Source: a virus. Taken from it: a stretch of 22,006 nucleotides of DNA. Within the stretch, counting starts at the first letter, position 1, and each line of letters begins with the position of its first letter. A program made the translations under genes and the position numbers. The stretch is from positions 1 through 22,006 of the IMG/VR virus record IMGVR_UViG_3300003267_000193; one strand, 5' to 3'. Below are positions 1,465 through 17,482 of the stretch, piece by piece. Under the pieces are notes generated by a model. That model had not been told where the DNA came from. It ran no database searches and was given only the letters and a program-made list of their open reading frames with translations.

Positions 1465-2175
1465 ATGCCTCGACTCCCGGTGCTCATTCGCCAGAATAAG
1501 GTTTTTGAGCTGGTCGTTGCGGGCCGGACCTATACCCAGATCTGCCAGCAACTGCACATCAGCGAGGACACGATCGCCCGCGACATGGCCGCGATCGGCG
1601 AGGAGGTGCAGCGACTCGTCCGCGAGCGCGCCGGCGAGATCGTCGCGGTGGCGCTGGCCACCTATCAGAAGGTGATTGACGAGGCCTGGCGCGAGTATTA
1701 TGCCGCCGCACAGCGCGAAAAGGACTGGTACGCCGGCCACCTCGACTTCGAACACGAAACGATCGCCACCAAGACGCTGGCGATCGAGGCCGATGAGACC
1801 GACGAAGGACGGCGAAAGCCGAACAAGGACGCTGCCGCCCGCGCTGCGATTAGCGCGCTGGCCATCGAGAGTGAGTCGCAGCCGCTGGAGGTGACCCGCA
1901 CCCGCAAGGCGGTGCGGCCCGCACTCGTGAATAGCGGCCGGCGTGAGTGGCTCCAGGTGATTATGGAGGCCACGCGCGAGATCACCGAGCTGACCGGCGT
2001 GAAGAAGCTGATTGTCGAACATAGCGGGCCGAGCGGCGGCGCAATCGAGGTAACCACTACCGCATTAGAACAGGCCGCGCGCGAGCTACAGGAATGGCGA
2101 CACCAGATGACACAGCAGTTGAGTATGCCAAATGTGCCGCCGACGCCGCCTACTTCACCGACACCTATGGAGTGA
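1465..2175 (+). CDS. terS: terminase small subunit-like protein
   Basis: 236 residues. The N terminus (residues about 10-50) is a homeodomain-like helix-turn-helix: KVFELVVAGRTYTQICQQL followed by HISEDTIARDMAAI. This resembles the DNA-recognition domain of phage small terminases, which select viral DNA for packaging. A long charged helical middle follows. The C-terminal tail is Pro/Thr-rich and its last 27 codons are shared in another frame with the large subunit. The position directly before a clear large terminase gene is the strongest support. I took the ATG at 1465 as start because the upstream extension of the frame lies in the previous gene; no good ribosome-binding site is visible. 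Confidence 0.75.
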   Translation: MPRLPVLIRQNKVFELVVAGRTYTQICQQLHISEDTIARDMAAIGEEVQRLVRERAGEIVAVALATYQKVIDEAWREYYAAAQREKDWYAGHLDFEHETIATKTLAIEADETDEGRRKPNKDAAARAAISALAIESESQPLEVTRTRKAVRPALVNSGRREWLQVIMEATREITELTGVKKLIVEHSGPSGGAIEVTTTALEQAARELQEWRHQMTQQLSMPNVPPTPPTSPTPME

Positions 2176-3566
2176 TCGACGACGCGCAGGGACACGGCGA
2201 GGGCGATGGCACGATGCCGTTCAAGCTCTGGCCCGCCCAGATCGGCGTGATGTGGCAGCTCATGGTCGAGCGGCTGATCATCATCCTCAAAGCGCGGCAG
2301 CTCGGGATTAGCTGGATCTGCTGCGCGTACGCGCTCTGGCTCTGCCTCTTTCAAGCTGGCAAGTTCGTGCTGATCTTCTCCAAAGGCCAGAACGAAGCCA
2401 ACGAGATGCTCTCGCGCATCCGCAAGCTGTATGAACGGCTTCCGGATTGGCTCAAAGCCGCCGCGCCGCAGCTCATCAAGAGCAACACGACCGAGCTGGA
2501 GTGGTCGAACGGGTCGCGCATCGAAAGCCTGCCGGCGACCAAGAGCGCCGGGCGTAGTCTCACCGCCACCCTGGTCATCTTGGATGAGGCGGCATTCCTA
2601 CTCTTCGCCAGCGAGCTCTACACGGCACTCAAACCGACGATCGACGCTGGCGGTCAGCTCATCATCCTGTCGACGGCCAACGGGATCGGCAACCTGTTTC
2701 ATCAGCTCTGGACCCGTGCAAGCGCTGGCCTCAACAAGTTCAAGACGATTTTCCTGCCCTGGTGGTCGCGGCCAGGCCGAGACGCGGCGTGGTACGCGGC
2801 GCAGCTGGCCGAGTATACCGATGGGGCGATGGTCAAGCAGGAATACCCGGCGACCGCGATCGAGGCGTTTTTAGTCAGCGGCCGCGTGCGCTTCCAGCAG
2901 GCATGGATTGCCAAGCAGGCGCCGCATCTGATTGACCCGATCGACCTTGCGCACGCGCCGGAACGCTTTCGCCCCGCGCTCGCCGCGATCGATGGACTCC
3001 TCTTCTACGCACCACCGCAGCTCGGCCGGCGCTACATCCTGGCCGCCGACGTGGCTGAGGGAACCGAGACGGGCGACTACTCGGCCGCAGTCCTGATTGA
3101 CGCCGAGTCCTGGGTCGAGCTGGCCAGCCTGCACGGGCATTGGGAGCCCGACCAGTACGCCGCGTATCTCTGGGCACTTGCACAAGTGTACGGCGCCGAG
3201 ATCGGCGTCGAACGCAATAACCACGGCCATGCGGTGCTGGTCGCACTCAAGAACCTGGGCGCGCACAAGATCGCGCTGGGCCACGATGGCAAGCGCGGAT
3301 GGCTCACGAACGCACAGACCAAGCCCCAGGCGATCGATCTCCTGGCGCAGGCGCTGCGCGATGGCTCGCTCGCCGTGCGCACGCAGGCCGCGCTCGAAGA
3401 GATGGCAATCTACCGGACCCTGAAGGATGGCGACACGGGCGCGCCGAACGGATACCACGATGATTATGTGATGGCCTGGGCGATCGCGCTGATGCTGGCC
3501 CGCCGGCCATCCACCAGCACGACCAGCAAAAGCCGCGTCGTCACCGCCGAGCAACTAGGACTCTAA
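2094..3566 (+). CDS. terL: terminase large subunit (ATPase and nuclease of DNA packaging)
   Basis: 490 residues, the usual size for the family. The ATPase domain has a deviant Walker A motif KARQLGIS (66-73), a Walker B LVILDEAAF (D164/E165) and a coupling motif LSTANG. The C-terminal RNase H-like nuclease shows its acidic residues in AADVAEGTETGDY (near D319), GVERNNHG (near E373) and YHDDYVMAWAIAL (near D456/D457). The protein pumps DNA into the prohead through the portal and cuts the concatemer. Its start lies 82 bases inside the small-subunit gene, and AGGA sits almost against the ATG, so translational coupling is likely. The stop overlaps the portal start (TAATG). Confidence 0.95.
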   Translation: MATPDDTAVEYAKCAADAAYFTDTYGVIDDAQGHGEGDGTMPFKLWPAQIGVMWQLMVERLIIILKARQLGISWICCAYALWLCLFQAGKFVLIFSKGQNEANEMLSRIRKLYERLPDWLKAAAPQLIKSNTTELEWSNGSRIESLPATKSAGRSLTATLVILDEAAFLLFASELYTALKPTIDAGGQLIILSTANGIGNLFHQLWTRASAGLNKFKTIFLPWWSRPGRDAAWYAAQLAEYTDGAMVKQEYPATAIEAFLVSGRVRFQQAWIAKQAPHLIDPIDLAHAPERFRPALAAIDGLLFYAPPQLGRRYILAADVAEGTETGDYSAAVLIDAESWVELASLHGHWEPDQYAAYLWALAQVYGAEIGVERNNHGHAVLVALKNLGAHKIALGHDGKRGWLTNAQTKPQAIDLLAQALRDGSLAVRTQAALEEMAIYRTLKDGDTGAPNGYHDDYVMAWAIALMLARRPSTSTTSKSRVVTAEQLGL

Positions 3567-4963
3567 TGCCCTCGTTCATCCAGCGCATCACGAATTTCAT
3601 CCGCGGCACTCGGGCAGGGTCTGCGACGACCACCATCGACCTGACGCCCGCGCCGCCGATGCCGACCGCCGAGCTCCAGCGCTTCGCGGTCGAGCGCGAT
3701 CGCACGGCGATTATCCAGATCGTGCGGCGGATGGTCGACGAAGACCCGCGCGCCGCGCGCCTTGTTGCCGATCTGGCCAGAGACGCCACGCGCGGCGGCT
3801 TTAGTGTCAAAGTCCAGCGCGGCAATGGCTCCGCGCGGGCGAATGCCGAGGCGGCCGCCCTGATCGAGCGCCTGGGCCTGGCCGAGGCGGTGATGGACTG
3901 GGCGAAGTTCGCGTTCAAAGAGGGCGATGCGTTTCTCGAGATCGGCGTCGACGCCAATAACGATATCGTCGCCGTCACGCGCAAGCCAGTCCTGCAGATG
4001 CACCGCCAGAGCGACGACCGCGACCAATTTCCCGATCCCACGCGCGCCTACTGGTGGGCCGATGAGCTCTGGATGGGCATGGACGCCCCGCGCGATGCCG
4101 TCTGGTTTGCCGATTGGCAGATCCTGCATGTCCGCTGGGACCACGACAGCGCGCAGCGCTACGGGCGCCCGCTGTTTGCGAGTGCGCGCAAACAGTGGAA
4201 GCGCGTGGACGAGGGCGAGACGGACATGGCCGTGCGGCGCAAGACCCGTGCCGGCCTCAAGTACAATCACAAATTCCCCGACGGCACCGCGCCGGATGTC
4301 ATCGAGACCTACAAAGAGCAGAACAAGGACGCGCTCGGCAATCCGACCGCGGCGATAAGCGACTTCTTCGGCACGACCGATATCACGGCGATCGAGGGCG
4401 ACGGCCGCCTCGCCGAGATTGGCGATGTCAAGCACCATCTCGCGACCTGGGGATTGGCCTCACCGCTCCCGCTCTCGCTGCTCGGCTACGGCGAAGACCT
4501 CAACCGCGATGTGCTGGACGACCAGAAGAAACAGTACGACCGCGCGCTCGACGGCGTGTGCCTCTGGATTGACAAAGAGATCATCCAGCCGCTGATCGAA
4601 CTGCAATGGCTCCTCAAGGGTATCTGGCCCGCATCGCTTACGTATCAGATCACCCGCCCGAGCCGCAACCCGATCACCCCGGCTGACCTGGCCTCGGCCG
4701 GCGATGCTGCTCAGAAACTCAAAGAGACCGGCGTGATTGCCGACGTGCTGCTGCTGCGGTTTCTCGCGCAGATCATCCCGAATCTCGATCCCGAGGAGGC
4801 CATGCAACTGCTCCAGCAGCAGCAGGAAGAACAGGCCGCCCGCCAGCCAGCACCGCAACCGCAGGTGCTACCCGGTAGCAACCAGGGCAATCAGCCGCCA
4901 GGCCAGGGAGACCAGGGCCAGCAGGGCGATGGGCAGCCGAGCGGCGAGGGTCAGCAGCAATGA
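3566..4963 (+). CDS. portal protein
   Basis: 465 residues. The portal forms the dodecameric ring at the capsid vertex through which DNA enters and to which the tail is joined. Support comes from its place right after the large terminase, its length, and portal-like stretches such as DWAKFAFKEGDAFLEI (about 110-127), WQILHVRWDHDSAQRYGRPL (about 187-206) and LGYGEDLNRDVLDDQKKQYD. The last 60 residues are low-complexity Gln/Pro/Gly, a common portal tail. A TGCTAC-CCG-GTAGCA hairpin repeat lies inside this tail coding region at 4866-4880. The start shares one base with the terminase stop; the end overlaps the next gene as ATGA. Confidence 0.9.
   Translation: MPSFIQRITNFIRGTRAGSATTTIDLTPAPPMPTAELQRFAVERDRTAIIQIVRRMVDEDPRAARLVADLARDATRGGFSVKVQRGNGSARANAEAAALIERLGLAEAVMDWAKFAFKEGDAFLEIGVDANNDIVAVTRKPVLQMHRQSDDRDQFPDPTRAYWWADELWMGMDAPRDAVWFADWQILHVRWDHDSAQRYGRPLFASARKQWKRVDEGETDMAVRRKTRAGLKYNHKFPDGTAPDVIETYKEQNKDALGNPTAAISDFFGTTDITAIEGDGRLAEIGDVKHHLATWGLASPLPLSLLGYGEDLNRDVLDDQKKQYDRALDGVCLWIDKEIIQPLIELQWLLKGIWPASLTYQITRPSRNPITPADLASAGDAAQKLKETGVIADVLLLRFLAQIIPNLDPEEAMQLLQQQQEEQAARQPAPQPQVLPGSNQGNQPPGQGDQGQQGDGQPSGEGQQQ
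4866..4880 (+). repeat. TGCTAC-CCG-GTAGCA hairpin, copy inside portal gene
   Basis: A perfect 6-bp stem with a CCG loop. The identical 15-mer recurs at 15590-15604 and 19522-19536, and a variant at 11921-11956. This copy is translated as part of the low-complexity portal tail (VLPGS), a place that tolerates insertions. Confidence 0.7.
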
Positions 4964-5157: not shown

Positions 5158-5453
5158 TCATCCACGCCAAGCAGGCCACCGTCGAATTCTCCAACGACGG
5201 CGAGATGTGGGAGCCCTTACCCGCCTTCGATGGCTTCATCGAACGCGAGTGCAAGCCGATCAAGGTGCTCTACACCGAGCCCGCCGAGCCCTTCACGATT
5301 GAGATCGAGTTCAAGGCTCCCAGTCGATCGAAGATTAATCGCCTCTACCGAACACTGCGCCGCCTAACCGGCTATGGTCCGGCCGGCAAGCGCGGTACAT
5401 CCCCACGACGCGCCGCGCGCCGGCGCCACCATCGGAAGCTCAAGCGACGCTAA
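5154..5453 (+). CDS. small hypothetical protein with basic C-terminal tail
   Basis: 99 residues. The first 65 are a likely beta-rich domain (MIIHAKQATVEFSNDGEMWE...KVLYTEPAEPFTIEIEFKAP). The last 30 are strongly basic (RRAARRRHHRKLKRR) and could bind nucleic acid. It is coupled to the preceding gene by ATGA. A noncoding stretch of 226 bases follows. The function is not recognised; a minor head protein or packaging accessory would fit the location. Confidence 0.6.
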   Translation: MIIHAKQATVEFSNDGEMWEPLPAFDGFIERECKPIKVLYTEPAEPFTIEIEFKAPSRSKINRLYRTLRRLTGYGPAGKRGTSPRRAARRRHHRKLKRR

Positions 5454-5656: not shown

Positions 5657-5679
5657 TCCCCCCTACATCGGAGCACCCC

Positions 5680-8358
5680 ATGAAGAAATCCAAGATCGCC
5701 AAAGGCCAGCCGCTCGCCGAGCTGGCGAAAGGCTCCCTCGAATATACCTCAACGATGATCCACCAGGCATTCCGGTCGCAATTCCGCGCCGACGATATGT
5801 ACTGGAACTGGATGATCTGCGAGATCTTCGCCGAGTACGTGATCGTCTATGACTCGCAGCTGCCGCCGGATGAATACTGGCGCGTGCATTACACCACCGC
5901 CCAGACGAGCTATCAATTCGCGTCCCGCGATGCGTGGGAATTGGTCGAGCTGGCCTACCAATCGGCCGCACGCGACGAGGCGATCCGCGTCCACCGCGCG
6001 CCGAGTATTGCGGCCAGTTTCACTACAAGCGGCGACGGCATCCCGCTGGTCGAAAGCCTCGATCGTACCCGCCTCGAACTCTGCGAGGCGCAGGCCGGCA
6101 AACCGCGCCGAATTCGAGCGCGCGGCATGACCGCCGATATCATCAACCGCAATAATCGGCGCTATGCAAGTGAGGTGCTACGCGCGGCCGTCGCCGAGGC
6201 GCAACCCCTGGCCGAGCGCGGCGAGCTGCTGGCCGAGTCAGGGCACCCCACCGATAAGCCGAGCGGCACGGCCGATATCTTAGAATCGCTCGTCCGCTGG
6301 GATTCGATCGTCTTCGACGGCGGCGAGGTGCTGCTGGAAGGTGAGATCATCCCCACATCCAAAGGCCGCGACCTGATCACGATCATGGAAGCCAAGGTCT
6401 ACCCGCGACTCAGCCAGCGCGCCTACGGCAGGGCCGAGCAGGTCGAAGAGGGCGGCCGGCGCTTCCTGGATATCAAGGAACTCCACATCACCGGCTACGA
6501 CCTGGTGATGGACCCCGGCGACCCCACTGCCGCCACCCTGGCATTCGAATCCTTCAACCCACAACCTATCACAGGAGATCCCCCCACTATGGACCGTCTG
6601 ACCCTAGAAGCCCTGCGCACCGAGTATCCCGAGCTGGTGGCGCAGATCGTCGCTGAAAGCAATGCCGCGCGCCGCGCGGAGCTGGAATCGGAGTTGGAAG
6701 CGCAGCGCCAGGAGAAGGCGCGCGAGCAGGAGATCATCCAGGCGCGCGAGCGCACGCTACGCGAGTCGCTGGGTCTCGGCGAGACCGACGACCTGGCCGC
6801 AGCCATCGAGCGCCAGAACACCGAATTGCAGCGCTTGCAGGAAGCCGAGCAGGCCCGCGCCGTCGCGGCCTACATCGCCGAGGAGTGCGGCAAGATCAGG
6901 TATGCCGAGATCCTCAAGCCGCAATTCGCCAAGCGCGTCGAGAACGCTCACGCCAAGACGATCGAGGAAGCCAAGCAGGCGATCGTGGCGGCCCGCGCCG
7001 AGTACGACGCGCTGCAGGCGAGCATCGAACTGCACGCGCGCGGCCGCGGCCAGCTCTCGATCCTCGGCCCCGTGCTGGAGTCGGAGCTGGGCGTGCCGGA
7101 GTTCGCGCGGGCCAGCTACGAGCTGACCGAATCGCTCATCCGCCACGGCCAGGCCGAGCCGCGCAACCTGCGCAAGCCATCGAATATTAACGAGCGCTTC
7201 ACGGTGCAATACCTGGAGCGGTTCGACAGCGCCTACCGCCACCACCTGGCCAACGAGGCGCGGCTGTTCAACGAGGCCGAGCAGACCAGCGATCTCAACC
7301 TGCCCTACTCGGTCATGCGCACGATCATCGCCGAGGCGCTGCCCGAGCTGGTCGCCCTGTCGATCTTCGACGTGCAGATGGTCGACATGGCCCCAACCAC
7401 CAATATCTGGTTCGAGAATTACGCGGCCGAGTCGGGCGCGACCGGCAGCGTTACCGATGAGGTCGTGACCGCCGCGCTCAACACCTGGGTGAACCTGGCC
7501 AACGCGCATCTCGATCCCGGCTCGGTCGTCCTGACCAACTCGGGCGCGACCGTCACGTACACCGAGGGCACCGATTACGTGGTGGATTACCTGGGCGGCC
7601 GCCTCATGGCGATCGCGACGATCACCAACGGCCAGTCGCTCAAGATCGACTACACCTACCAGGCCATGCGCCGCGGCGAGATGGCCGCGATCAAGCGCGG
7701 CAAGAACCAGCTGACCAGCAAGTCGCTGACCATCGCGGCCGATCGCCTGGCCGTTGAACTCTCGACCGAGTCGATCCAGTTCAGCCGGGCGGCGCTGGGC
7801 TACGACGCCCGCGCGCGGCTGCTGGCGCGACTCGTGCGCCAGATCCAGAACAAGATCGACGGCGGGCTGTTCTACCTGGCCCTGGCCGCCGCACTGCAAG
7901 TCGCGTCCAACAGCGGCGGCACCTGGACGGCCGCGAGCGATGATCCGGCGCTGCTGGCCAAGTACATCGGCGTGGCGAAGGTCAAGATCGCCAACCGCAA
8001 CTACGAGCCAACCGCCGTGCTGATGAGCAAGACCAACTCGGATCGCCTGGCGAACTGGGACGGCTACACGCAGGCGGGTTCGCGCGTCGATGCCGATCTC
8101 AACAGCGCGGGCTACTCCGGGCGGGTCAAAGGCTTGCCCGTCTTCGATACCACGAACTTCACCGACGGCTACGTGCTGCCGATCAACCGCGAGGTCGTGC
8201 TGTATCGCATCGCCCAGCCCATGCAGATCAAGGGACCGATCCCATCCTTCGACTTCTCGGCTGGCCAGGTCGTCGCCGGCGAGCAGTACTACGTCGAAGA
8301 GTTCAACGGCGCCGAGGCGCCCGTGCCGCAGAAGGCCGCGAGCGTCAAGATCGCCTAA
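5680..8358 (+). CDS. prohead protease - scaffold - major capsid protein fusion
   Basis: 892 residues in one uninterrupted frame. Residues about 145-290 look like a T4 gp21-type (S77) prohead protease: NRNNRRYASEVL, then SGHP with H189, SQRAYG with S245 as likely nucleophile, and ITGYDLVMDP. Residues about 304-470 are a charged coiled coil (EAQRQEKAREQEIIQARERT) typical of scaffold or delta domains. Residues about 480-892 fit an HK97-fold major capsid protein, with LPYSVMRTIIAEALPELV and a beta-rich insertion (VTYTEGTDYVVDYLGG). The ATG at 5680 has GGAG nine bases upstream; the frame is open further upstream by chance. The protease would mature the shell after assembly. The main uncertainty is whether the whole fusion or mainly a shorter internal product is made. 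Confidence 0.88.
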   Translation: MKKSKIAKGQPLAELAKGSLEYTSTMIHQAFRSQFRADDMYWNWMICEIFAEYVIVYDSQLPPDEYWRVHYTTAQTSYQFASRDAWELVELAYQSAARDEAIRVHRAPSIAASFTTSGDGIPLVESLDRTRLELCEAQAGKPRRIRARGMTADIINRNNRRYASEVLRAAVAEAQPLAERGELLAESGHPTDKPSGTADILESLVRWDSIVFDGGEVLLEGEIIPTSKGRDLITIMEAKVYPRLSQRAYGRAEQVEEGGRRFLDIKELHITGYDLVMDPGDPTAATLAFESFNPQPITGDPPTMDRLTLEALRTEYPELVAQIVAESNAARRAELESELEAQRQEKAREQEIIQARERTLRESLGLGETDDLAAAIERQNTELQRLQEAEQARAVAAYIAEECGKIRYAEILKPQFAKRVENAHAKTIEEAKQAIVAARAEYDALQASIELHARGRGQLSILGPVLESELGVPEFARASYELTESLIRHGQAEPRNLRKPSNINERFTVQYLERFDSAYRHHLANEARLFNEAEQTSDLNLPYSVMRTIIAEALPELVALSIFDVQMVDMAPTTNIWFENYAAESGATGSVTDEVVTAALNTWVNLANAHLDPGSVVLTNSGATVTYTEGTDYVVDYLGGRLMAIATITNGQSLKIDYTYQAMRRGEMAAIKRGKNQLTSKSLTIAADRLAVELSTESIQFSRAALGYDARARLLARLVRQIQNKIDGGLFYLALAAALQVASNSGGTWTAASDDPALLAKYIGVAKVKIANRNYEPTAVLMSKTNSDRLANWDGYTQAGSRVDADLNSAGYSGRVKGLPVFDTTNFTDGYVLPINREVVLYRIAQPMQIKGPIPSFDFSAGQVVAGEQYYVEEFNGAEAPVPQKAASVKIA
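6573..6591 (+). promoter_or_regulatory. internal Shine-Dalgarno and ATG at the protease/scaffold junction
   Basis: AGGAG at 6573-6577 precedes an in-frame ATG at 6589 (codon 304) by 11 bases. The C-rich spacer resembles that of the separate gene at 18320 (AAGGAG, C-rich spacer, ATG). The site falls exactly where the protease ends and the coiled coil begins. Confidence 0.6.
6589..8358 (+). CDS. predicted internally started scaffold - major capsid protein
   Basis: Translation from the internal ATG would give 589 residues, starting MDRLTLEALRTEYPELVAQI: a coiled-coil scaffold followed by the HK97-fold capsid domain, without the protease. This would let the phage make many capsid subunits per protease, as lambda does for scaffold Nu3 inside protease C. 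The support is the well-placed AGGAG and the domain boundary. A protease site between scaffold and capsid is likely near residues 470-485, where acidic stretches such as VLESELGVPEF occur, but I cannot fix the cut. Confidence 0.55.
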   Translation: MDRLTLEALRTEYPELVAQIVAESNAARRAELESELEAQRQEKAREQEIIQARERTLRESLGLGETDDLAAAIERQNTELQRLQEAEQARAVAAYIAEECGKIRYAEILKPQFAKRVENAHAKTIEEAKQAIVAARAEYDALQASIELHARGRGQLSILGPVLESELGVPEFARASYELTESLIRHGQAEPRNLRKPSNINERFTVQYLERFDSAYRHHLANEARLFNEAEQTSDLNLPYSVMRTIIAEALPELVALSIFDVQMVDMAPTTNIWFENYAAESGATGSVTDEVVTAALNTWVNLANAHLDPGSVVLTNSGATVTYTEGTDYVVDYLGGRLMAIATITNGQSLKIDYTYQAMRRGEMAAIKRGKNQLTSKSLTIAADRLAVELSTESIQFSRAALGYDARARLLARLVRQIQNKIDGGLFYLALAAALQVASNSGGTWTAASDDPALLAKYIGVAKVKIANRNYEPTAVLMSKTNSDRLANWDGYTQAGSRVDADLNSAGYSGRVKGLPVFDTTNFTDGYVLPINREVVLYRIAQPMQIKGPIPSFDFSAGQVVAGEQYYVEEFNGAEAPVPQKAASVKIA

Positions 8359-8368
8359 TCCATCCCAC

Positions 8369-8410
8369 GAGCGAGGGATGGGCGCGTACCCCAACGCCCA
8401 TCCCTCGCTC
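8369..8410 (+). other. perfect 16-bp stem-loop after the capsid gene
   Basis: GAGCGAGGGATGGGCG (8369-8384) and its exact reverse complement (8395-8410) flank a ten-base loop. No T-run follows, so it is not a textbook intrinsic terminator. It may protect the 3' end of capsid mRNA, or partly stop transcription before the next genes. A 26-codon frame (ATG at 8378, stop at 8458) starts inside the stem and its TGA overlaps the next start, so ribosomes reading it would open the hairpin. Confidence 0.75.
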
Positions 8411-8454
8411 GGCGGTCCTATGATCGCCATCATTCCAGCACAAGGCATACCATC

Positions 8455-8832
8455 ATGATCACGGTTCGCTACATCGGCCCCGATGAGGCCATCCTGGCCG
8501 GCGCCTACATCCAGCACGGCGAGAGTCGGCGCGTGACGCCGGCGGCGCTGGCCGCGGCGCAGCAGTATCACCCCGATGGCTTCATCATTCTGGTGGCTGC
8601 CAGCGCCGAGGATGCCGGGCGCGAGGGTATCACCGCGTTTGTGCAGGCGCTCGCCCAGCCGACCCCGGCCGCCGAGCAGGCGCCGATCGACCCCGATCTG
8701 CTACCCACTCGCAGCGCCGAACTCGAGCCGCCGAGCGAGCCGCCCCCTTCACCGCCGGCCCATCCGGCGCCCACACCACAACCCAGGCAACCCAAGCAAC
8801 CCGCGCATCGCCGCGATCGGCGCAGCCGCTAA
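8455..8832 (+). CDS. small head- or neck-associated protein, unknown
   Basis: 125 residues. The N-terminal 70 residues form a compact domain (MITVRYIGPDEAILAGAYIQ...SRRVTPAALAAAQQYHPDGF) like short proteins often found right after phage capsid genes. The C-terminal 55 residues are a Pro/Ala/Glu-rich linker that ends in a basic tail (HRRDRRSR). AAGG lies eight bases before the ATG, and the ATG overlaps the stop of a possible 26-codon leader. The exact role is not known; decoration or head completion are guesses from position. Confidence 0.6.
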   Translation: MITVRYIGPDEAILAGAYIQHGESRRVTPAALAAAQQYHPDGFIILVAASAEDAGREGITAFVQALAQPTPAAEQAPIDPDLLPTRSAELEPPSEPPPSPPAHPAPTPQPRQPKQPAHRRDRRSR

Positions 8833-9656: not shown

Positions 9657-9692
9657 AGTATAGCAGCATAGCAAAGGCTCGCCCCATGTCCA
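9657..9692 (-). promoter_or_regulatory. minus-strand promoter for the antisense gene
   Basis: Read on the minus strand: an extended -10, TGC-TATACT, has its TATACT at 9662-9657, six bases before the ATG at 9650. Transcription would start almost at the ATG, giving a leaderless mRNA. A second choice is TGGACA (9692-9687), 16 bases, TATGCT (9670-9665), which would leave a short leader with TGAGG. The two candidates overlap. Confidence 0.5.
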
Positions 9693-11917
9693 CCTCGTAT
9701 CCTGGCGCACTCGATGCGTTCAATAATCCGAGCAGCAGCGATAACCTCAATACCGCCGGCGTCCTGCACGATGTGCAGCATAGCGATGCCAACGATGCGA
9801 TCGAGGCACTCGAACGCAAGCTCGGCATCGATCCGAGCGGGCCGACGGTGCTCACCGGACGCGGCAGCATCGATAGCCTGGTGCGCGCGTATTACGACAT
9901 CCGCGCCTATGGCGCCGTGCCCGATACGATCGTCTTTGATGCGGTGATTACTGGTGGCAGCCGCACCATCACGAGCGCGACCGCCAACTGGCAGGCCGGG
10001 GATGTCGGGAAGACATTCTATATCCGTGGGAAAAACGTCGGGTATGCGGCGGGCCTCCACGCGCGGCACGTGTACCACTCCACGATCGAGACGCGCAATA
10101 GCGCCAGCTCGATCGTCGCGCTCTCGACCGACGAGGCGCCATTTGCCGGCGTCGGCGCGGCGATGATGGGTTGGGGCAGCGATAACGGCCCGGCCATCCA
10201 GGCAGCGATCGATGCGGCTGCAGCGGCTGGCGGCGGCACGGTGCTCATTCCCTCGGGTTCCTGGCTGACCAACCAGACGATCGTGCTCAAGCTCGGCGTG
10301 CAGCTCCAAGGCACGGGGCGCTTGGCCTCGGTCATCCGCCTGGGTCGTGGGGTCAATAATCCGATCATCAAGAATGATCCCGGCAATAGCACGACCACCC
10401 CACCGCAGCGCGTCGCCGCCCTGACCGGAATCTTCGATCTCCAGATTGACGGCAACTGCGATCGGCAGAGCGGCAGCGCGACCACCGCGCACGGCGTCTA
10501 CTTCTCGGCCGATCCATTTTGGGCGCAGAATACCACGGATGTCGAATTCGATACGCTGCACCGCCTGCACAATGTCTACATCGTGAACGTGCGGAATACT
10601 GGCTACCGCACCGATGGCCGCCAGGTGACGAAGCTCTCGAATGTCGATACCTATTTCTGCAACGGCAACGGCTTCGATCCCGGCGTCGACCATCACATGG
10701 TCAACTGCGAGGCCGGACAATCGGGCCTGGAAGGATTTTTGCTCAACAGTCCCGGCGTGACCCTGGCCAGTTGTAAGAGCTTCTACAGCGGCAATATCAC
10801 CGCATCGCGCGGCGATGGCTTCCTGATCGATGGGGTCACCGGTGGCATGAACGCGCTCGCCGCATGCGAGGCACAGGATAATAAGGCCCACGGCTACCAT
10901 ATCAAGAACAGCCGGGCGGCCTCGCTCTCATCGTGCGGCGCCGAGTCGAATTCGACCAGCAGCGCCGGAACCTATGTTGGCTTCTGTCTCGACGGCTGCT
11001 TTGAGTGCATCGTCGAGGCCGGCACCGCGACCGAGCGATTCGATACGACCAGTAGCACGCAGCGATCGGCGGTCATGCTGATCAACAGCGCGGTCGATAA
11101 CCGCATTAGCTGCTCGTTCGGCTTCACCTTCGCGACGGCCTCGAAAGGCCCGGCGATCCATAGCTCATCCACGGCGATCGAGAATAACGACGTGCGTATC
11201 AATGCGCAGCAGGGCGTGCAGACCGTCGCCTATGCCGCCACGATTACGCCGGATGTCTACCGGGGCGGCACGATCAAGGTCGGCGCGCTGACCGGCAACC
11301 TGACCGTCAATGCACCCTCGACCGGGCACACCGGCTGCGAGTTGACCTTCCTCTTCGTCCAGGATGCGACCGGCGGCCGCACGATTACCTGGAACAGCGC
11401 CTTCAAGTCGGCCTTCCAGCCGAATAGCAAGGCCTCGTCGCGCTCGGTCGTCAAGTTCAAGTACGACGGGACCAACTGGCTGCAGATCGGTTCCGATGGC
11501 ATCGATCGCGCGGTCGGTGCGGCGCGCTGGCATGAGACGATCACCTTCACGAATATGCAGGCGCCGGGCGGATCCGCGATCAGCGCGAACACCTGGGGCA
11601 ATATCTTCGTCGGCGCGAACGGCCAACGCCAGGTGGCCAACTTCACCGGGTACACCCAGTACCGCGTGCTGCTGCACTACAACCAGCCGGCGAGTGGCGC
11701 CGGCACACTGCAATTCCGCGTGGTCGACCAGGTGACGCAGACGAACGTGCTGCATAGCTTCGCCGGGAATACTGGCACCGGCGAGATCGAGTCGGACTCC
11801 GGCTGGGCCGATCTGCCCGCCTGGGCCGGCGGCGATGCCTTCATCGTGCCACAAATCCAGGCGAACAATACCACCACCGATCCGATCTTCCGCTCGCTCG
11901 CCGTCTACCTCCGCTAA
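9686..11917 (+). CDS. beta-helix tail spike-like protein
   Basis: 743 residues. The N-terminal 60 residues (LGIDPSGPTVLTGRGSIDSLV) look like a virion-attachment segment. A pectate-lyase-like right-handed beta-helix follows, with IRAYGAVPDTIVFD near residue 72, AIQAAIDAAAAAGGGTVLIP near 170-190 and many short Asn/Ser/Gly-rich rungs to about residue 500. The C-terminal 200 residues are beta-sandwich-like domains, including GGRTITWNSAFKSAF and a final domain that starts near ITFTNMQAP. Such spikes bind or degrade surface polysaccharides; no catalytic residues can be named from sequence alone. AAAGG lies eight bases before the ATG. The gene diverges from the antisense gene across 35 bases. Confidence 0.8.
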   Translation: MSTSYPGALDAFNNPSSSDNLNTAGVLHDVQHSDANDAIEALERKLGIDPSGPTVLTGRGSIDSLVRAYYDIRAYGAVPDTIVFDAVITGGSRTITSATANWQAGDVGKTFYIRGKNVGYAAGLHARHVYHSTIETRNSASSIVALSTDEAPFAGVGAAMMGWGSDNGPAIQAAIDAAAAAGGGTVLIPSGSWLTNQTIVLKLGVQLQGTGRLASVIRLGRGVNNPIIKNDPGNSTTTPPQRVAALTGIFDLQIDGNCDRQSGSATTAHGVYFSADPFWAQNTTDVEFDTLHRLHNVYIVNVRNTGYRTDGRQVTKLSNVDTYFCNGNGFDPGVDHHMVNCEAGQSGLEGFLLNSPGVTLASCKSFYSGNITASRGDGFLIDGVTGGMNALAACEAQDNKAHGYHIKNSRAASLSSCGAESNSTSSAGTYVGFCLDGCFECIVEAGTATERFDTTSSTQRSAVMLINSAVDNRISCSFGFTFATASKGPAIHSSSTAIENNDVRINAQQGVQTVAYAATITPDVYRGGTIKVGALTGNLTVNAPSTGHTGCELTFLFVQDATGGRTITWNSAFKSAFQPNSKASSRSVVKFKYDGTNWLQIGSDGIDRAVGAARWHETITFTNMQAPGGSAISANTWGNIFVGANGQRQVANFTGYTQYRVLLHYNQPASGAGTLQFRVVDQVTQTNVLHSFAGNTGTGEIESDSGWADLPAWAGGDAFIVPQIQANNTTTDPIFRSLAVYLR

Positions 11918-11920
11918 TCC

Positions 11921-11956
11921 TGCTACCCGGCCCGCCCCGACGCTGTCGGGGTAGCA
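11921..11956 (+). repeat. nested hairpin repeat between spike and fibre genes
   Basis: TGCTACC (11921-11927) pairs with GGTAGCA (11950-11956). Inside lies CCCCGAC-GCT-GTCGGGG (11935-11951), a second hairpin that shares its last bases with the outer arm. The outer arms match the TGCTAC...GTAGCA repeat seen elsewhere in the window, and the inner hairpin recurs at 19653-19669. Confidence 0.7.
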
Positions 11957-11972
11957 GCCGCAGAGACGCACG

Positions 11973-12794
11973 ATGCCCACCGAACAATTCGCCAATAATG
12001 CGACGACCACGCTGAATGGTGCGATCTCCAGCACCAGCGCGACCAGCATCACGGTCGCGAGCGCGTCGGCATTCCCATCCGTCGCGCAATTTCGCATCCT
12101 GATCGAGAGCGAGATTATGCTGGTGACGGCCGGCGCGGGCTCGACGACCTGGACCGTCACGCGCGGGATCGAGGGCACCACGGCGGCCACACATGCCGAC
12201 GGCGCGACCGTGCGGCAGATCCTCACGGCCGGCGCGCTCAAAATCTGGACGCCGAGTCAGGTGATCGCGCCGCGACATCATGGCCTCAAGGCCTGGAATT
12301 ACGATCCGGGCACCACCAGCTCGAGCTCGGCGAATGTCTCGGGCACGATCTACGCGCAGAAGATCTACCTCCCCGAAGATATGCCGATTACCAACATCGT
12401 CTTGGTGATTGGCACGGCCGGCGCCACGCTGACCAGCGGGCAGAGCCTGGTCGGCCTGTACTCGCAGACCGGCACGCAGATCGGCGTGAGCGCTGACCAG
12501 TCGGCCAACTGGACATCCAGCGGCGTCAAGACGATCGCGCTCACGAGCGGCCCCTTCAGCGTCTCGGGCGGGCCGGATAATTACTGCTATGTCCTGGTGA
12601 TGTGCAATGGCACGACGCCGGCCGCGTTCACGCGCGCCAGCGCGAACTTCAACGCCGGGAATGTCGGCCTGGCCGCCGCCGATGGCTTCCGCTTCGGCGT
12701 GCAGGGGACGAGTCAGACCGCACTCCCATCCTCGTTCACGGTCAGTAGCCTGACGACCACCAACGCCCTGTGCTTCTGGGTCGGCCTCAGCTAA
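11973..12794 (+). CDS. tail fibre or baseplate-type adhesion protein
   Basis: 273 residues. Residues about 10-90 (LNGAISSTSATSITVASASA, MLVTAGAGSTTWTVTRGIEG, then THADGATV) match a small beta domain that is frequent at the N terminus of phage fibre and spike proteins. The C-terminal 170 residues form a predicted beta-sandwich (LKAWNYDPG, IYLPEDMPITNIVLVIGTAG, FTVSSLTTTNALCFWVGLS) suited to ligand binding. It lies between the spike and the repeat protein, so the three probably form the receptor-binding apparatus. No strong ribosome-binding site is seen upstream. The stop overlaps the strong site of the next gene. Confidence 0.7.
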   Translation: MPTEQFANNATTTLNGAISSTSATSITVASASAFPSVAQFRILIESEIMLVTAGAGSTTWTVTRGIEGTTAATHADGATVRQILTAGALKIWTPSQVIAPRHHGLKAWNYDPGTTSSSSANVSGTIYAQKIYLPEDMPITNIVLVIGTAGATLTSGQSLVGLYSQTGTQIGVSADQSANWTSSGVKTIALTSGPFSVSGGPDNYCYVLVMCNGTTPAAFTRASANFNAGNVGLAAADGFRFGVQGTSQTALPSSFTVSSLTTTNALCFWVGLS

Positions 12795-12807
12795 GGAGGT
12801 CGGCATG
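12793..12807 (+). promoter_or_regulatory. strong Shine-Dalgarno of the repeat protein gene
   Basis: AAGGAGGT (12793-12800) is a near-perfect match to the 16S rRNA tail, four bases before the ATG at 12805, and overlaps the TAA of the previous gene. It fixes the start and suggests high translation with reinitiation. Confidence 0.8.
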
Positions 12808-15030
12808 GCGACAGCGCTCTACCTCACGAGCATCAGTTCGGATGTCAACCCGGGCAGCGAGGACGAGCGCCTGGCGCAGCTGACGCGCGGTAGCGGCGTC
12901 ACATCCTCGGATGCGACCGCGACCGTCGCCGGACCAACCGCTGGCGTGCAGGCGCAGCTGAGCGGCGCGGGTCTCACCTGGCTCTCCAACCCGCTGAACG
13001 GTGTCACGATCAGCGGGACGATTACCTTTAACATCTGGGGTTCCGAGTCGGCCGCGCAGGCCAATGCCGGCTTCGATGTGCTCGTCGAGCGCTGCAATGC
13101 CTCGGGCGTCGTGCAATCCACGATCCTGCGCTCGGAGCGCGGCACCGAGATGGGCACCACGTCCAGCGCGAACACCTGGACCGGCACGCCGACCTCGACC
13201 ACGCTGAGTACGAACGATCGCATCAAGATCACCGTGTTCGCCAATGACGCCGGCGGCACGATGACGGCCAGTAGCCGGACCTTTACGCTGCGGTTCAATG
13301 GCTCCAGCAGCGGCGCCGACGGCGATACCTTCGTTCAGTTCACCGAGACGCTGACCGAGAACCTGGCGACACGGACCGGCGATCTGAGCCAATCCCAAGC
13401 GAATCAGACGCTCAATCCCAACGGAGCCGGCGCCGTGGCGATCGCCGGTTCCCTTTCGGCCAGCCAGGCGGCCGAGACGCTGAGCGCGACGATCGAGTCT
13501 CCCTGGCAGGCACCGACCGCTTTCACCGCGCAACTGGGCACGCCGTATAGCGTGCTCGCCGGGATTGTCCTGGGCAGCGATCTCGATACCGGCGCGCGGA
13601 TCGGATCGCTCACGCAGACCCAGGCCGCCGAGACACTGAGCGCGGCCGGTGCGGTGGCCCTTGCCGGCTCCCTTTCGATCACCCAGGCCGCCGAGACACT
13701 GAGCGCGGCCGGCGTCGTCGGCGCAGCCGGCATCATTGGCGATGCCAGTATCACCCAGGCGGCCGAGACACTGAGCGGGGCCGGCGCGGCCCTGATTGCA
13801 GGAAGCGCCGCGCCAAGCCAGGCCGCCGAGATGCTGAGCGCGGCCGGCGCCGTGGCCCTGGTCGGCTCCCTTTCGACGACCCAGGCCGCCGAGACCCTGA
13901 GCGCCAGCGGCAGTACGACGACCAACGGCACCTATCGCGGGTCGTTCGGCTACCAGGACGCACGCACCTATCAAGGCACGGCCAGCAGTATCACCGGGAG
14001 TGCCACGCCGAGCCAGGCGGCCGAGACGCTGAGCGCGGCCGGTGCGGTGCTGATTGCAGGAAGCGCCGCGCCAACCCAGGCCGCGCAGACCCTTGCCGCC
14101 ACGGCGACCGGCGCTATCGCCGGTTCCCTTTCGAGCACCCAGGCGGCCGAGACGCTCAGCGCCAGCGGCACGAACCCGATCGCCGGCGCCCTCGCACAAA
14201 CCCAGGCAGCGCAGACCCTTGCCGCCAGCGCTGCGGTCGCCCTGGTCGGCTCCCTCACGAAGACCCAGGCCGCCGAGACGTTGAGCGCGGCCGGGAGCAC
14301 TGGATCGGGCACCGGCACCTATCGCACGGCAGTGGGCTACCGGGCGGCGGTCAATTACCTCTCGGGCGCAAGCGCGATCGTCGGTACCCTCTCGACCACC
14401 CAGGCGGCCGAGACGCTGAGCGCGGCCGCAACGCACCCGGTGAGCGGCGCCCTGGCGAAGACCCAGGCCGCCGAGACACTGAGCGCGGCCGGCGCGGTCA
14501 GCGGCGCCACCGGCATGTACCGATCGGCGTACGGCTACCGCGACACCCTTTCCTATCGCGGCAGCACGGCAGCCACGATCGGAACGCTGGCGAGCAGCCA
14601 GGCCGCCGAGATCCTGAGCGCCAGCGGCCGAGTCGCGATCGCCGGCGTCCTCTCGACCAGCCAGGCCGCCGAGACACTGAGCGCAGCGGCGATCCATCCG
14701 ATCGTCGGCGCACTCGCAGCCACCCAGGATGCCGAGACGCTGAGCGCCAGCGGCAGCAGCCTCGCCATCCGTACCGGCACACTGGCCGCCATCCAGGATG
14801 CCGAGACACTGAGCGCGACCGGCCTGATCGCGGCCACCGTGCGCGCCCGGCTCCACGGCCGCACCGTTGTCGAGACGGTCATGCGTGGGACGGCCAGAGT
14901 GGAGACCCGGCTGCACGGCGCCGCCCACCGATCGGTCACGCGCATGAGCGCCAGCGCCACCCCCGCCACCTTCCTGCACGGCCGCACCACTCGATCCGCG
15001 ACTCTCACCGGTACGGCGCAAAGGACATAG
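12805..15030 (+). CDS. large repeat-built fibre-like structural protein
   Basis: 741 residues in three parts. Residues 1-192 are a globular beta-rich head domain (GVTISGTITFNIWGSES, DVLVERCNASGVVQ, RIKITVFANDAGGTM). Residues about 193-672 hold 18 copies of a unit of roughly 21 residues with core TQAAETLSAAGAV. Three of the copies carry an inserted Tyr/Arg-rich cassette of the type GTYRGSFGYQDARTYQG. Residues about 673-741 are a basic tail of ten-residue repeats (LHGRT, MRGTA, LHGAA). The repeats suggest a long fibrous stalk, perhaps a beta-solenoid. The gene follows the spike and fibre genes. Similar ATQA..TLSA repeats occur in other phage proteins, but I know of no structure. Confidence 0.7.
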   Translation: MATALYLTSISSDVNPGSEDERLAQLTRGSGVTSSDATATVAGPTAGVQAQLSGAGLTWLSNPLNGVTISGTITFNIWGSESAAQANAGFDVLVERCNASGVVQSTILRSERGTEMGTTSSANTWTGTPTSTTLSTNDRIKITVFANDAGGTMTASSRTFTLRFNGSSSGADGDTFVQFTETLTENLATRTGDLSQSQANQTLNPNGAGAVAIAGSLSASQAAETLSATIESPWQAPTAFTAQLGTPYSVLAGIVLGSDLDTGARIGSLTQTQAAETLSAAGAVALAGSLSITQAAETLSAAGVVGAAGIIGDASITQAAETLSGAGAALIAGSAAPSQAAEMLSAAGAVALVGSLSTTQAAETLSASGSTTTNGTYRGSFGYQDARTYQGTASSITGSATPSQAAETLSAAGAVLIAGSAAPTQAAQTLAATATGAIAGSLSSTQAAETLSASGTNPIAGALAQTQAAQTLAASAAVALVGSLTKTQAAETLSAAGSTGSGTGTYRTAVGYRAAVNYLSGASAIVGTLSTTQAAETLSAAATHPVSGALAKTQAAETLSAAGAVSGATGMYRSAYGYRDTLSYRGSTAATIGTLASSQAAEILSASGRVAIAGVLSTSQAAETLSAAAIHPIVGALAATQDAETLSASGSSLAIRTGTLAAIQDAETLSATGLIAATVRARLHGRTVVETVMRGTARVETRLHGAAHRSVTRMSASATPATFLHGRTTRSATLTGTAQRT
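13381..14820 (+). repeat. coding tandem repeat array, 18 units of about 63 bp
   Basis: Units of about 63 bases, many sharing the core ACCCAGGCCGCCGAGACNCT or close variants, are arranged head to tail. The array is broken by longer units at about residues 230-265, 373-390, 502-520 and 568-585 of the protein. High DNA identity between units makes copy-number change by recombination likely, and also makes short-read assembly errors possible here. Confidence 0.85.
14827..15027 (+). repeat. coding ten-residue repeats at the C terminus
   Basis: The last 65-70 residues of the repeat protein read as about six degenerate ten-residue units beginning LHGRT, MRGTA, LHGAA, MSASA, LHGRT and LTGTA, each followed by Arg/Thr/Val-rich residues. 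The alternation is different from the upstream 21-residue units, so this is a second repeat class in the same protein. Confidence 0.6.
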
Positions 15031-15033
15031 ATC

Positions 15034-15339
15034 ATGATCGACACCCTGACCATCGACCTCGGCGACGGCGCCAAACTCGATATGACCTTCAGCGTCGACG
15101 ATGTCGATACCGACCCCGCCACGATCACGATCGAGCTGAAGAGTCCATCGAACGCCGTCACGACCTACACCTTTGCCGCGAGCCAGATCACGAAGATCGC
15201 GACCGGGCAGTATCGCAAGATCCTCGGCGCATCCATCCTGAACGCGGCCGGGCAGTGGCGCTACTCCTGGATCGGCACCGGCACCGCCGAGGGCGCCGAG
15301 CAGGGTCTGATCGTCGTCAACGCCCGCGCCAGCGCGTAA
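15034..15339 (+). CDS. small Ig-like beta-sandwich phage protein
   Basis: 101 residues with alternating beta strands: LTIDLGDGAKLDMTFSVDD, ATITIELKSPSNAVTTYTFA, YRKILGASILNAAGQWRYSW and a GAEQGLIVVNARAS end. This layout (strand, Pro-containing turn, GQWRYxWxGTG, VV end) is common in small phage proteins of the fibre or surface region. AAAGGA lies eight bases before the ATG. It directly follows the repeat protein by three bases and is probably translated with it. The precise role is unknown. Confidence 0.65.
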   Translation: MIDTLTIDLGDGAKLDMTFSVDDVDTDPATITIELKSPSNAVTTYTFAASQITKIATGQYRKILGASILNAAGQWRYSWIGTGTAEGAEQGLIVVNARASA

Positions 15340-15359
15340 CCATGAAAGGTTCCCAACCG

Positions 15360-15584
15360 ATGAAGCCCATTACCTCGAATGAGACGCACGAAGCACTCGC
15401 GCGCATGCTGCATGCCGATCGCGTGCAGCTCGCCGGCCTGATCGAGCGACTCCCGATCCACCGGGATATCCTCAAGAGCCCGGCCGCGACGATCGCCGAG
15501 CTGGAGACGCAGGCCGAGCAATCGGTGCGCGTGATCGAGTATCTAGAGAAGCGCCTGGCCGAGCTTGGCCCGGTCGAGGCGTAA
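15360..15584 (+). CDS. small helical protein, unknown
   Basis: 74 residues, MKPITSNETHEALARMLHAD onward, nearly all helical, with a heptad-like C-terminal half (IAELETQAEQSVRVIEYLEKR). I prefer ATG 15360 over the in-frame ATG at 15342 because GAAAGG lies ten bases upstream of the former and nothing lies upstream of the latter. It may be a small coiled-coil chaperone or accessory of the preceding surface proteins. No family recognised. Confidence 0.55.
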   Translation: MKPITSNETHEALARMLHADRVQLAGLIERLPIHRDILKSPAATIAELETQAEQSVRVIEYLEKRLAELGPVEA

Positions 15585-15589
15585 CGCCT

Positions 15590-15604
15590 GCTACCCGGTA
15601 GCAG
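15590..15604 (+). repeat. TGCTAC-CCG-GTAGCA hairpin, intergenic copy
   Basis: An identical 15-base hairpin repeat, five bases after the stop of the preceding gene and 16 bases before the adaptor gene. It could act as a processing or stalling site between the fibre and connector blocks. Confidence 0.7.
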
Positions 15605-15619
15605 CCCCCGAGCATTCCT

Positions 15620-16264
15620 ATGAGCAGCAGCCTCACCAGCATGGCCGATATCCTGGCCGCCGACGTGCCGCCCTACGGCAACGTGCCCACGACCGAGCAC
15701 TATCTGCGATCGGTCAAGGATGCCGTGGCCGATCTCAGCCGGCGCGCGGCGCTGATCAAGATCGCCACACTCGCGATCGTGAGCGGCACGGCCAGCTATG
15801 ACCTACCGGCCGACTTCCTGCGCCTCATCCGGCTCGATACGGCCAATGGCTACGGCTCCAACGGCGTGCTGTATAGCGCCGAGGGGCTGGTGCCGCTCAC
15901 GCCCTGGTCGAGCCAGAGCTGCGAGCGCACCACGATCGCGCACGGGGCGATCACCTTCACGCCGACGCCGGCCTACACGCTCGATCGGCAACTTACCTAT
16001 GCGGCCGCCTACGCCCTCGACGGCGACGACTATGCCGATCTGGATGACGACCTGGCGCAGATCGCACTCCTCAAAGCGCGGGCGATCTGCCTGCTGCTAC
16101 AAGCCGCCAAGGCGGCCCGCGATGCCTGGGTATCCGAGCTTGGCCCCGAGAAGCGCGACAAGACCAAGCAGGCGCCGGAACTGCGCGCCGAGGCCGCCGA
16201 ATTCGAGCGGCACTACCTCGCCGCACTCAACGCACGCAGTGGCCCATACGGGAGTCGATCCTGA
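15620..16264 (+). CDS. head-tail adaptor (connector) protein
   Basis: 214 residues. The segment VSGTASYDLPADFLRLIRLD (about residues 54-73) is typical of phage adaptor proteins that dock on the portal ring. The following beta-rich middle and the helical C terminus (LAQIALLKARAICLLLQAAK) fit as well. It is the first of four consecutive connector genes, ordered adaptor, stopper, gp10-like and tail terminator as in HK97-like phages. The stop overlaps the next start by one base. The family assignment rests on pattern and order, not on a search. Confidence 0.7.
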   Translation: MSSSLTSMADILAADVPPYGNVPTTEHYLRSVKDAVADLSRRAALIKIATLAIVSGTASYDLPADFLRLIRLDTANGYGSNGVLYSAEGLVPLTPWSSQSCERTTIAHGAITFTPTPAYTLDRQLTYAAAYALDGDDYADLDDDLAQIALLKARAICLLLQAAKAARDAWVSELGPEKRDKTKQAPELRAEAAEFERHYLAALNARSGPYGSRS

Positions 16265-16638
16265 TGCCAGCGCTGAATGCAGAAGACCGCGCTGCACTGG
16301 CGGCCGATGCCGCCGAGATGATCGCCGATGGCGAGCTCGTCACGCTGGCCCGCGCGCCAAAAGGCATGCGCAATCGCGGCGATGCCGAGGCCTTCGCCAC
16401 GAACGTGCCCATGCAAATCTGGTCCACGAATGGCAACAGCGATCCGCGCATCCTGGAAGCTGTACCGGCGATTGGCGGCCAGCGCGTCGCCGCCGTCGGC
16501 TATGCGTCGGCCGGCACCGACCTGCAGGCGGGCGATGAAATCTGGACCGCGAGCAAACGATATAGCGTGCTGGGCGTGGGAATCTGGCGCGGCAGCGTGG
16601 CGGCCGCGCTCAATGAGATTGTGCCGAGGGCATCGTGA
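16264..16638 (+). CDS. head closure (stopper) protein
   Basis: 124 residues. The C-terminal half has the usual small barrel pattern of SPP1 gp16-like stoppers: QIWSTNGNSDPRILEAVPA, AGDEIWTASKRYSVLGVGIW and RGSVAAALNEI. The protein closes the portal channel after packaging and receives the tail. It shares one base with the adaptor stop and its TGA overlaps the GTG of the next gene. Confidence 0.7.
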   Translation: MPALNAEDRAALAADAAEMIADGELVTLARAPKGMRNRGDAEAFATNVPMQIWSTNGNSDPRILEAVPAIGGQRVAAVGYASAGTDLQAGDEIWTASKRYSVLGVGIWRGSVAAALNEIVPRAS

Positions 16639-17027
16639 CAGGGCTGAAAGTTGAAATCCTGCACCTGCCCGAGGTGCAGGCCGCGCTCAGAGCCAAGGCC
16701 GATCGCCTGACCCCGGCGCTCAATGATGCCGCGACGGTCGGCCGCCGGCTGCTCGTCGAGCAGTTGACCAACTACCCGCCGCCCCGGCAGGGCCAGCGCT
16801 ATGTACGAACCTTCCGCTTGAAACGTGGATGGGAGCGCGCCACGCCGATCACCGGCGGCCGCGGCTTCCAGCTGATCAACCCGGTCGAGTATGCGCCGGC
16901 GGTGCAGGGCACCAACCAGCGCCCCGCCTTCCGTGGCCGTTGGGAGAATGTGGCCAGTATCGCCAAGCGCATGCAGGCCGAAGTCATCGCCGCGTATGTG
17001 CAGGCGGTCAAGCAGGCGGTTGAATGA
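16635..17027 (+). CDS. HK97 gp10-like tail completion protein
   Basis: 130 residues from a GTG start that overlaps the stopper stop as GTGA, with GAGGG four bases upstream. The N terminus (VEILHLPEVQAALRAKADRL) and the middle (YVRTFRLKRGWERA, EYAPAVQGTNQRP, RGRWENVASIAKRMQAEVIAA) follow the gp10 pattern, with the YAxxV(Q/H)G motif near residue 88. These proteins act at the head-tail interface. The end overlaps the next gene as ATGA. Confidence 0.75.
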   Translation: MTGLKVEILHLPEVQAALRAKADRLTPALNDAATVGRRLLVEQLTNYPPPRQGQRYVRTFRLKRGWERATPITGGRGFQLINPVEYAPAVQGTNQRPAFRGRWENVASIAKRMQAEVIAAYVQAVKQAVE

Positions 17028-17482
17028 GCGTCAATCCCACCACGATCCGCACCACCCTTGCCGAGCTCTTGAGAGCGGGCTGCCCCGACGCCATGCGCGT
17101 CTATCCCGACGAGCCCGGCGACCTGGGCAAGAAGAGCCCGATCATCGTCCTCTCACGGCGCGGCCGCGGTCGGAATAAGCAGGGCCAGGCGCTGCGCACC
17201 TTCCAGACCAAGATCAAGCTCTGGCTCGATGTGTATGTGGCCGCGCCGGATGGCCGCGACTACACCGACGCCGAGGCGGCCGCGCTGCTGGACACCATGG
17301 CCTACCAGATCGACGCGGTGATCGACCAGTACCAGACCGCGATCGATAGCGAGACGCAGGCCAAGCTCTGGCAGGCGATCGAATACGACATCGATAGCGA
17401 GATCGAGTTCGGCATCTTCAACGACGATGGCGTGCCGCGCTGGCGCGAGCACATGGGCCTGGTCGTGACGGTCTTCGCCTAG
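17024..17482 (+). CDS. tail terminator protein
   Basis: 152 residues. Size, position after the gp10-like gene and pattern suit the tail terminator (gpU or SPP1 gp17 type): helical start (TTIRTTLAELLRAGCPDAMR), beta strands (IIVLSRRGRG, FQTKIKLWLDVYVAAPD) and a final strand HMGLVVTVFA. It caps the tail tube at its head end. Its TAG overlaps the antisense gene stop in the palindrome CTAG. The assignment is from order and secondary-structure pattern. Confidence 0.65.
   Translation: MSVNPTTIRTTLAELLRAGCPDAMRVYPDEPGDLGKKSPIIVLSRRGRGRNKQGQALRTFQTKIKLWLDVYVAAPDGRDYTDAEAAALLDTMAYQIDAVIDQYQTAIDSETQAKLWQAIEYDIDSEIEFGIFNDDGVPRWREHMGLVVTVFA

Follow-up and report, generated by a model that had tools for sequence, protein, structure and literature searches.

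Two arrangements of phage head genes are already known: tripartite fused head genes (reportedly in Gifsy-2, and as models in NCBIfam and PHROG) and nested head-gene starts (in lambda and in T4 gene 21). Gifsy-2, on which Effantin et al. are said to have reported in 2010, is described as carrying one gene for a protease, a central scaffold-like region and an HK97-fold capsid protein, and the protease of this tripartite gene is said to be ClpP-like. In lambda C/Nu3, the final part of a longer protease gene has a nested in-frame start, from which the abundant product is made; this product is scaffold only and the capsid protein has a separate gene, whereas the nested product proposed below would be a scaffold-capsid protein. 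Fusions of protease and capsid protein are also represented by the NCBIfam models NF045540 (ClpP-like) and NF045541 and by PHROG 4523 (prohead protease/major capsid fusion). In T4, the head genes for gp21, gp22 and gp23-gp24 are separate. T4 gene 21 has a second in-frame start at Met45 (PMC9026906), which suggests that internal starts are not foreign to this protease lineage. The internal start of T4 gene 21 shortens the protease and releases no capsid subunit, unlike the start proposed here.

The present analysis concerns a viral record of 22,006 bases, which is referred to in its complete length as the window, and a gene on its + strand in which protease, scaffold and capsid parts share one frame. 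The window protein has the protease fold, the protease family and the best capsid matches in common with T4, but differs from it in being a fusion. With the Gifsy-2 type it shares the layout, a likeness which does not amount to family membership; the window protease is T4 gp21-like, as against the reportedly ClpP-like protease of Gifsy-2. The fusions of NF045540, NF045541 and PHROG 4523 have the same layout too, and searches with the window protein, with its short form and with three relatives gave no match to either NCBIfam model at E values up to 1. A full-length relative of the window protein with the same fusion, at 39% identity, is encoded by gene Rctr41k_30 of Virus Rctr41k (KX853513). 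Its annotation, 'putative phage capsid protein and protease', names no nested start; its border between protease and scaffold likewise carries such a signal, AAGGAG 8 nt before an in-frame ATG. The accessible part of the Rctr41k paper gives a prohead protease among three head-assembly proteins and names no fusion (PMC5099504). A search of the open-licence literature, which says little about subscription journals, found no fusion of this kind for which a nested capsid start is described.

Gene organization

The frame at 5680-8358 is uninterrupted over 892 codons plus stop, so that the single 892-codon frame noted in the sequence-only reading is borne out, and the layout of this complete tripartite protease-scaffold-capsid gene (892 aa) recurs in homologues. 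A GGAG at 5670-5673 (+), the putative ribosome-binding site of the long product, lies 6 nt ahead of ATG 5680, and homologous proteins align from about this codon. A start at 5374, taken from the mechanically delimited open reading frame of 994 aa, was dropped, the extension being without support from any homologue. Upstream of the gene, a terminase large subunit is encoded at 2094-3566 and a portal/head-morphogenesis protein at 3566-4963. Beyond the capsid gene, large genes with pectate-lyase-like and tail-fibre-like matches occupy 9686-15030, and weak head-tail connector matches occur at 15034-17482; the position of the large genes between these connectors and the capsid gene is an unusual order. 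Long open frames are also seen on the - strand at 6757-8571 (604 aa), antisense to the capsid gene, and at 12787-15021 (744 aa), antisense to another large gene; both are probably a by-product of high G+C.

Domain architecture

The part encoded by 5680-6588 (+) comprises an N-terminal domain (about residues 1-105) and a T4 gp21-like Peptidase S77 protease (residues 118-284), as indicated by Pfam, profile and model. The sole Pfam match of the long protein is PF03420 (Peptidase_S77) at residues 119-284, with a score of 41.6 bits, which rises to 44.7 bits when residues 1-303 are used as the query (cut-off 27 in both cases). A profile of 35 relatives of residues 1-303, compared with solved structures, matched T4 gp21 (PDB 5jbl) at an E value of 1.3e-12. 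The predicted model of the same residues (pLDDT 81) superimposes on 5jbl with Z 16.4 over 147 residues (rmsd 2.4 Å; TM-score 0.71 by target length), the next entry scoring Z 4.7. Within the stretch aligned to gp21, H189 and S245, which we take to be the catalytic positions, are unchanged in 35 of 35 aligned rows; the 5jbl chain presumably has an alanine in place of the catalytic histidine. Residues 118-284 are therefore assigned to Peptidase S77 with a predicted gp21 fold, in agreement with the protease recognized earlier from its motifs.

The N-terminal domain (5680-5994) is fused in 48 of 63 relatives, was not found in 14, some of which start at a contig edge, and lies in a separate frame in one, the frameshifted locus L064. 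Structural comparison of its model gives Z 4.7 to the NTF2-like protein 3ub1_C and Z about 3.6 to cystatins, and on so weak a likeness the domain is given no name.

The scaffold and capsid parts follow. A helical, delta-domain-like scaffold is predicted at about residues 304-454 of the long product (6589-7041, +), where the short form has long predicted helices spanning residues 14-61, 69-102 and 125-150. A linker and the HK97-fold major capsid domain are encoded by 7042-8358 (+), the structural matches spanning residues 232-589 of the short form. The model of residues 304-892, built with 53 relatives (pLDDT 85), displays long helices and then an HK97 fold. Its capsid part best matches the T4 head chain 7vrt_he (Z 18.8, 243 residues, 3.1 Å), then further T4 chains at Z 18.3 and 17.7 (the latter gp24), and matches HK97 prohead II (8cfa_G) with Z 16.5 over 219 residues at 3.5 Å. 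Comparison of the capsid profile with solved structures by sequence gave chance-level matches only. The scaffold region and the HK97-fold capsid domain of the sequence-only reading both find support in these models. The same reading considered a T4-like protease beside a siphovirus-like tail set unusual; the protease stands, but the contrast is weak because T4 head chains are also the best structural matches of the capsid model, and the 22-kb record stops too early for a complete tail module to be assessed.

The capsid domain carries an Ig-like or tail-tube-like insert at about residues 583-669 (about 7426-7686, +), which is matched by phrog_807 ('major tail protein with Ig-like domain') in 53 of 53 relatives scanned and also by the tail-tube model NF052337. 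Because of this insert, an annotation program could mistake the capsid protein for a tail protein.

Candidate cleavage sites were considered in the light of the T4 gp21 motif L/I-X-E, after which the chain is cut (PMC9026906). The candidate site LTE484 conforms strictly to the motif in 45 of 60 relatives, and at residue 290 the motif is loosely kept in 44 of 60. Strict motifs average 10.6 per protein, and columns within the protease domain score equally high; no cleavage sites are claimed because the motif is too common throughout the protein.

Conservation of the fusion

Homologous loci were collected by searching viral contigs with the long protein (4 relatives), by a profile scan (best 80 of 229 relatives taken) and by a scan with the protease profile (best 80 of 137), and bacterial genomes added three loci, all in Anaerolineales assemblies. 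In total 156 loci were examined, the window included and its own copy (L001) excluded. Both parts lie in one frame in 143 of the 143 loci that hold both, among which some are the same contigs fetched twice; the remaining 13 of the 156 hold one part only, being cut by the contig end. The 143 include L064 (1653-4448), in which frameshifts break the fusion into three overlapping frames, one of which still holds both parts; the breaks are probably sequencing error or decay. The search for split-gene homologues, put forward earlier as a check, thus returned no copy with protease and capsid in separate genes among these 156 loci, which were drawn from the best-ranked matches.

In bacterial genomes, both domains are fused in 7 of 7 distinct places (8 loci, L168 repeating L160). 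Among 396 genomes of the class to which one Anaerolineales assembly belongs, 9 match, 3 of them by the Ig-like insert alone. Plasmid records gave no match. A full-length match occurs in one of 50,697 phage records, that of Virus Rctr41k; with the short form as query, two of the 50,697 match, one via the insert alone. Of the 117 phage records that match in all, 29 were listed besides Rctr41k, and in these the match is confined to about residues 112-284 of the long protein. The earlier statement that protease and capsid are usually separate therefore holds for T4-like phages, but fused head genes are an already known kind.

Putative nested start at the protease/scaffold border

AGGAG at 6573-6577 (+), inside the coding frame, is a putative Shine-Dalgarno (SD) sequence 11 nt before an in-frame ATG at 6589-6591 (+), the comparatively proposed start of a nested scaffold-capsid product of 589 aa. 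Both elements are present at the protease/scaffold junction as the sequence-only reading had it, with a rather long gap. The window site is weaker than most, as its SD is of 5 nt and its gap is among the longest of the family. The predicted folding energy of its border RNA is -5.9 kcal/mol, as against -10.6 elsewhere.

The first five distinct homologues, the window included, differ in their linkers, yet each carries an SD-like stretch at the border, together with an ATG or GTG in frame. Seventy-nine loci were reduced to 63 distinct homologues by identity of the last 300 residues, and a signal was defined as an SD match of at least 5 nt placed 4-12 nt before an in-frame ATG or GTG, between -10 and +22 codons from the protease end. 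An initial border range of -30 to +60 codons had given 60 of 63; the range was then narrowed to -10 to +22 and kept for the held-out set. Under the narrowed rule the signal is present in 59 of the 63 (ATG in 51, GTG in 8). Elsewhere in the genes, such an SD precedes 264 of 4005 in-frame ATG, GTG and TTG codons (6.6%), and synonymous codon shuffling of the 63 genes gives a mean of 30.1 (sd 3.8; maximum 39 in 100 shuffles). Shuffles thus yield about half of the signal, probably owing to the frequent use of GAG for Glu near the border.

The same rule, applied to held-out homologues fetched by protease similarity, found the signal in 38 of 40, against a background of 210 in 2874 and shuffles of 16.8 ± 2.6 (maximum 24). 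The protease end in this set was located with profile A4, built from rows cut at the assigned starts, a profile which may help to locate that end but cannot create an SD. Overall, 97 of 103 junctions pass. All six misses, four in the first set and two in the held-out set, have GGAG 8 nt before an in-frame ATG, the starts of the four first-set misses having been assigned by motif, by eye. As the homologues are related, the counts are not independent; at 70% protease identity they form 33 clusters, with the signal in at least one member in 32 and in every member in 31.

GGAG occurs in all three codon registers (46, 16 and 1 of 63), and the residues encoded there vary (Lys-Glu, Gln-Glu-Glu, Gly-Asp, Arg-Arg and others), which argues against a conserved amino-acid motif as its cause. 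The predicted RNA folding is an independent indication of initiation: for 40 nt around the start the energy is -4.5 kcal/mol, compared with -9.7 elsewhere in the frame. The border RNA is predicted to be more open than the gene's own mean in 63 of 63 homologues and in 37 of 38 held-out ones, and the GC content around the start is 0.45 versus 0.60 elsewhere in the frame. The nested start, at first a suggestion from one site, is thus supported by comparison: over the family as a whole, the sequence signal greatly exceeds the chance level, the single site of the window being of modest strength.

A second fusion family in Chloroflexota

Relatives of NF045541 were found in 76 of 400 Chloroflexota genomes (E ≤ 0.001), every one under the curated cut-off, and 30 loci from these matches (L169-L198) were examined. 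Six of the proteins were scanned, and have a Phage_capsid_4 match and no Peptidase S77 match; for the five compared with PHROGs, the matches are to head maturation proteases and to 'major head and protease protein'. Three of the 30 loci, without a recognisable protease-end motif, were excluded, one of which (L189) has an SD and ATG at residue 201, and L171 was read in its capsid frame, its longest frame being antisense. In 24 of the remaining 27 loci, which form 14 clusters at 70% identity, an SD and in-frame ATG lie 5-75 codons downstream of the protease end, a range set after a first look at the data. The corresponding background is 63 of 1016, and shuffles give 9.5 ± 1.8 (maximum 14). The border RNA is predicted to be more open in 24 of 24. 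The misses (L179, L191 and L195) retain the Met with a weaker SD.

The capsid profiles of the second family and the window family gave no alignment, and direct comparison of the second family with the window gave nothing, with E values of 0.4 or worse; the second-family protease profile aligns weakly with that of the window family over the whole domain (29% probability). It is somewhat more likely than not that nested translation is a general design rule of fused protease-scaffold-capsid genes: in at least two lineages with unalignable capsids the protease border retains a putative ribosome-binding site and a start, and the ratio of initiation rates, rather than a separate gene, would set the number of proteases per procapsid.

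Proposed mechanism and alternative explanations

It is highly probable, in our judgement, that one message gives two nested proteins, a long one that co-assembles and doses the protease, and a short one that is the bulk procapsid subunit. Initiation at 5680 would give the 892-aa protease-scaffold-capsid chain as a minority product, and initiation at ATG 6589 the 589-aa scaffold-capsid chain as the bulk building block of the procapsid. A few long chains would join the short ones via their common scaffold and capsid parts, by which the gp21-like protease would be placed inside the shell at a dose given by the two initiation rates. The protease would then free itself, and removal of the scaffold would follow before DNA packaging. 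The fusion, the SD and the start are conserved by comparison, and the folds and open RNA are predicted; the synthesis of two proteins, their ratio, their co-assembly and their cleavage sites are what we infer.

A different possibility is that only the full 892-aa fusion is made, so that every subunit carries a protease that is cut off at maturation, and the SD-like stretch either slows the ribosome between domains, as a translational pause site, or simply results from the codons chosen in a Glu-rich linker. The border is indeed rich in Glu codons, synonymous shuffles alone reach about 30 of 63, and fusions of the Gifsy-2 type have reportedly been described only as composite genes. However, pausing would require neither open RNA nor an in-frame ATG or GTG at 4-12 nt, and both are found; the spread of GGAG over three codon registers and the return of the signal in the held-out set also speak against this explanation, and a full complement of protease in one procapsid would presumably be bulky. 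Synthesis of the fusion alone is accordingly considered improbable.

The short product could instead arise from an internal promoter or from message processing, rather than by initiation within the long message. One sigma-70-like match does lie upstream of ATG 6589, at 6127-6156, but 0.8 such matches are expected by chance, which leaves this origin very improbable; an internal promoter would still need the internal start and would therefore alter the transcription and not the two-product outcome. The least probable explanation, with a likelihood close to nil, is that an assembly or sequencing error joined two genes. It draws on the separate protease and capsid genes of T4-like phages (the 29 listed protease-only matches, of 117), but is opposed by the single frame of every two-domain locus, by the seven bacterial places and by the deposited Rctr41k record, and it is rejected because no split homologue occurs among the 156 loci. 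By comparison of sequences, the fusion is genuine and not a sequencing error.

Implications

As far as the literature search reaches, two things are new: a large, conserved family of S77-type fusions, and a conserved nested start, in two fusion families, that would release a capsid subunit. Annotation pipelines give one long 'capsid protein', of which the shell subunit probably starts only some 300 residues in; mass spectrometry of virions and predictions of capsid size that use such entries would therefore be misled. A procapsid has to acquire its protease in the right amount and at the right moment. With a conserved nested start, a single fused gene would meet both needs: the protease would be recruited by riding on a capsid subunit, and its dose would follow from the relative strength of the two ribosome-binding sites. 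This leads to a simple prediction that can be put to the test in a phage group hardly represented among annotated records, as well as in fused capsid genes generally.
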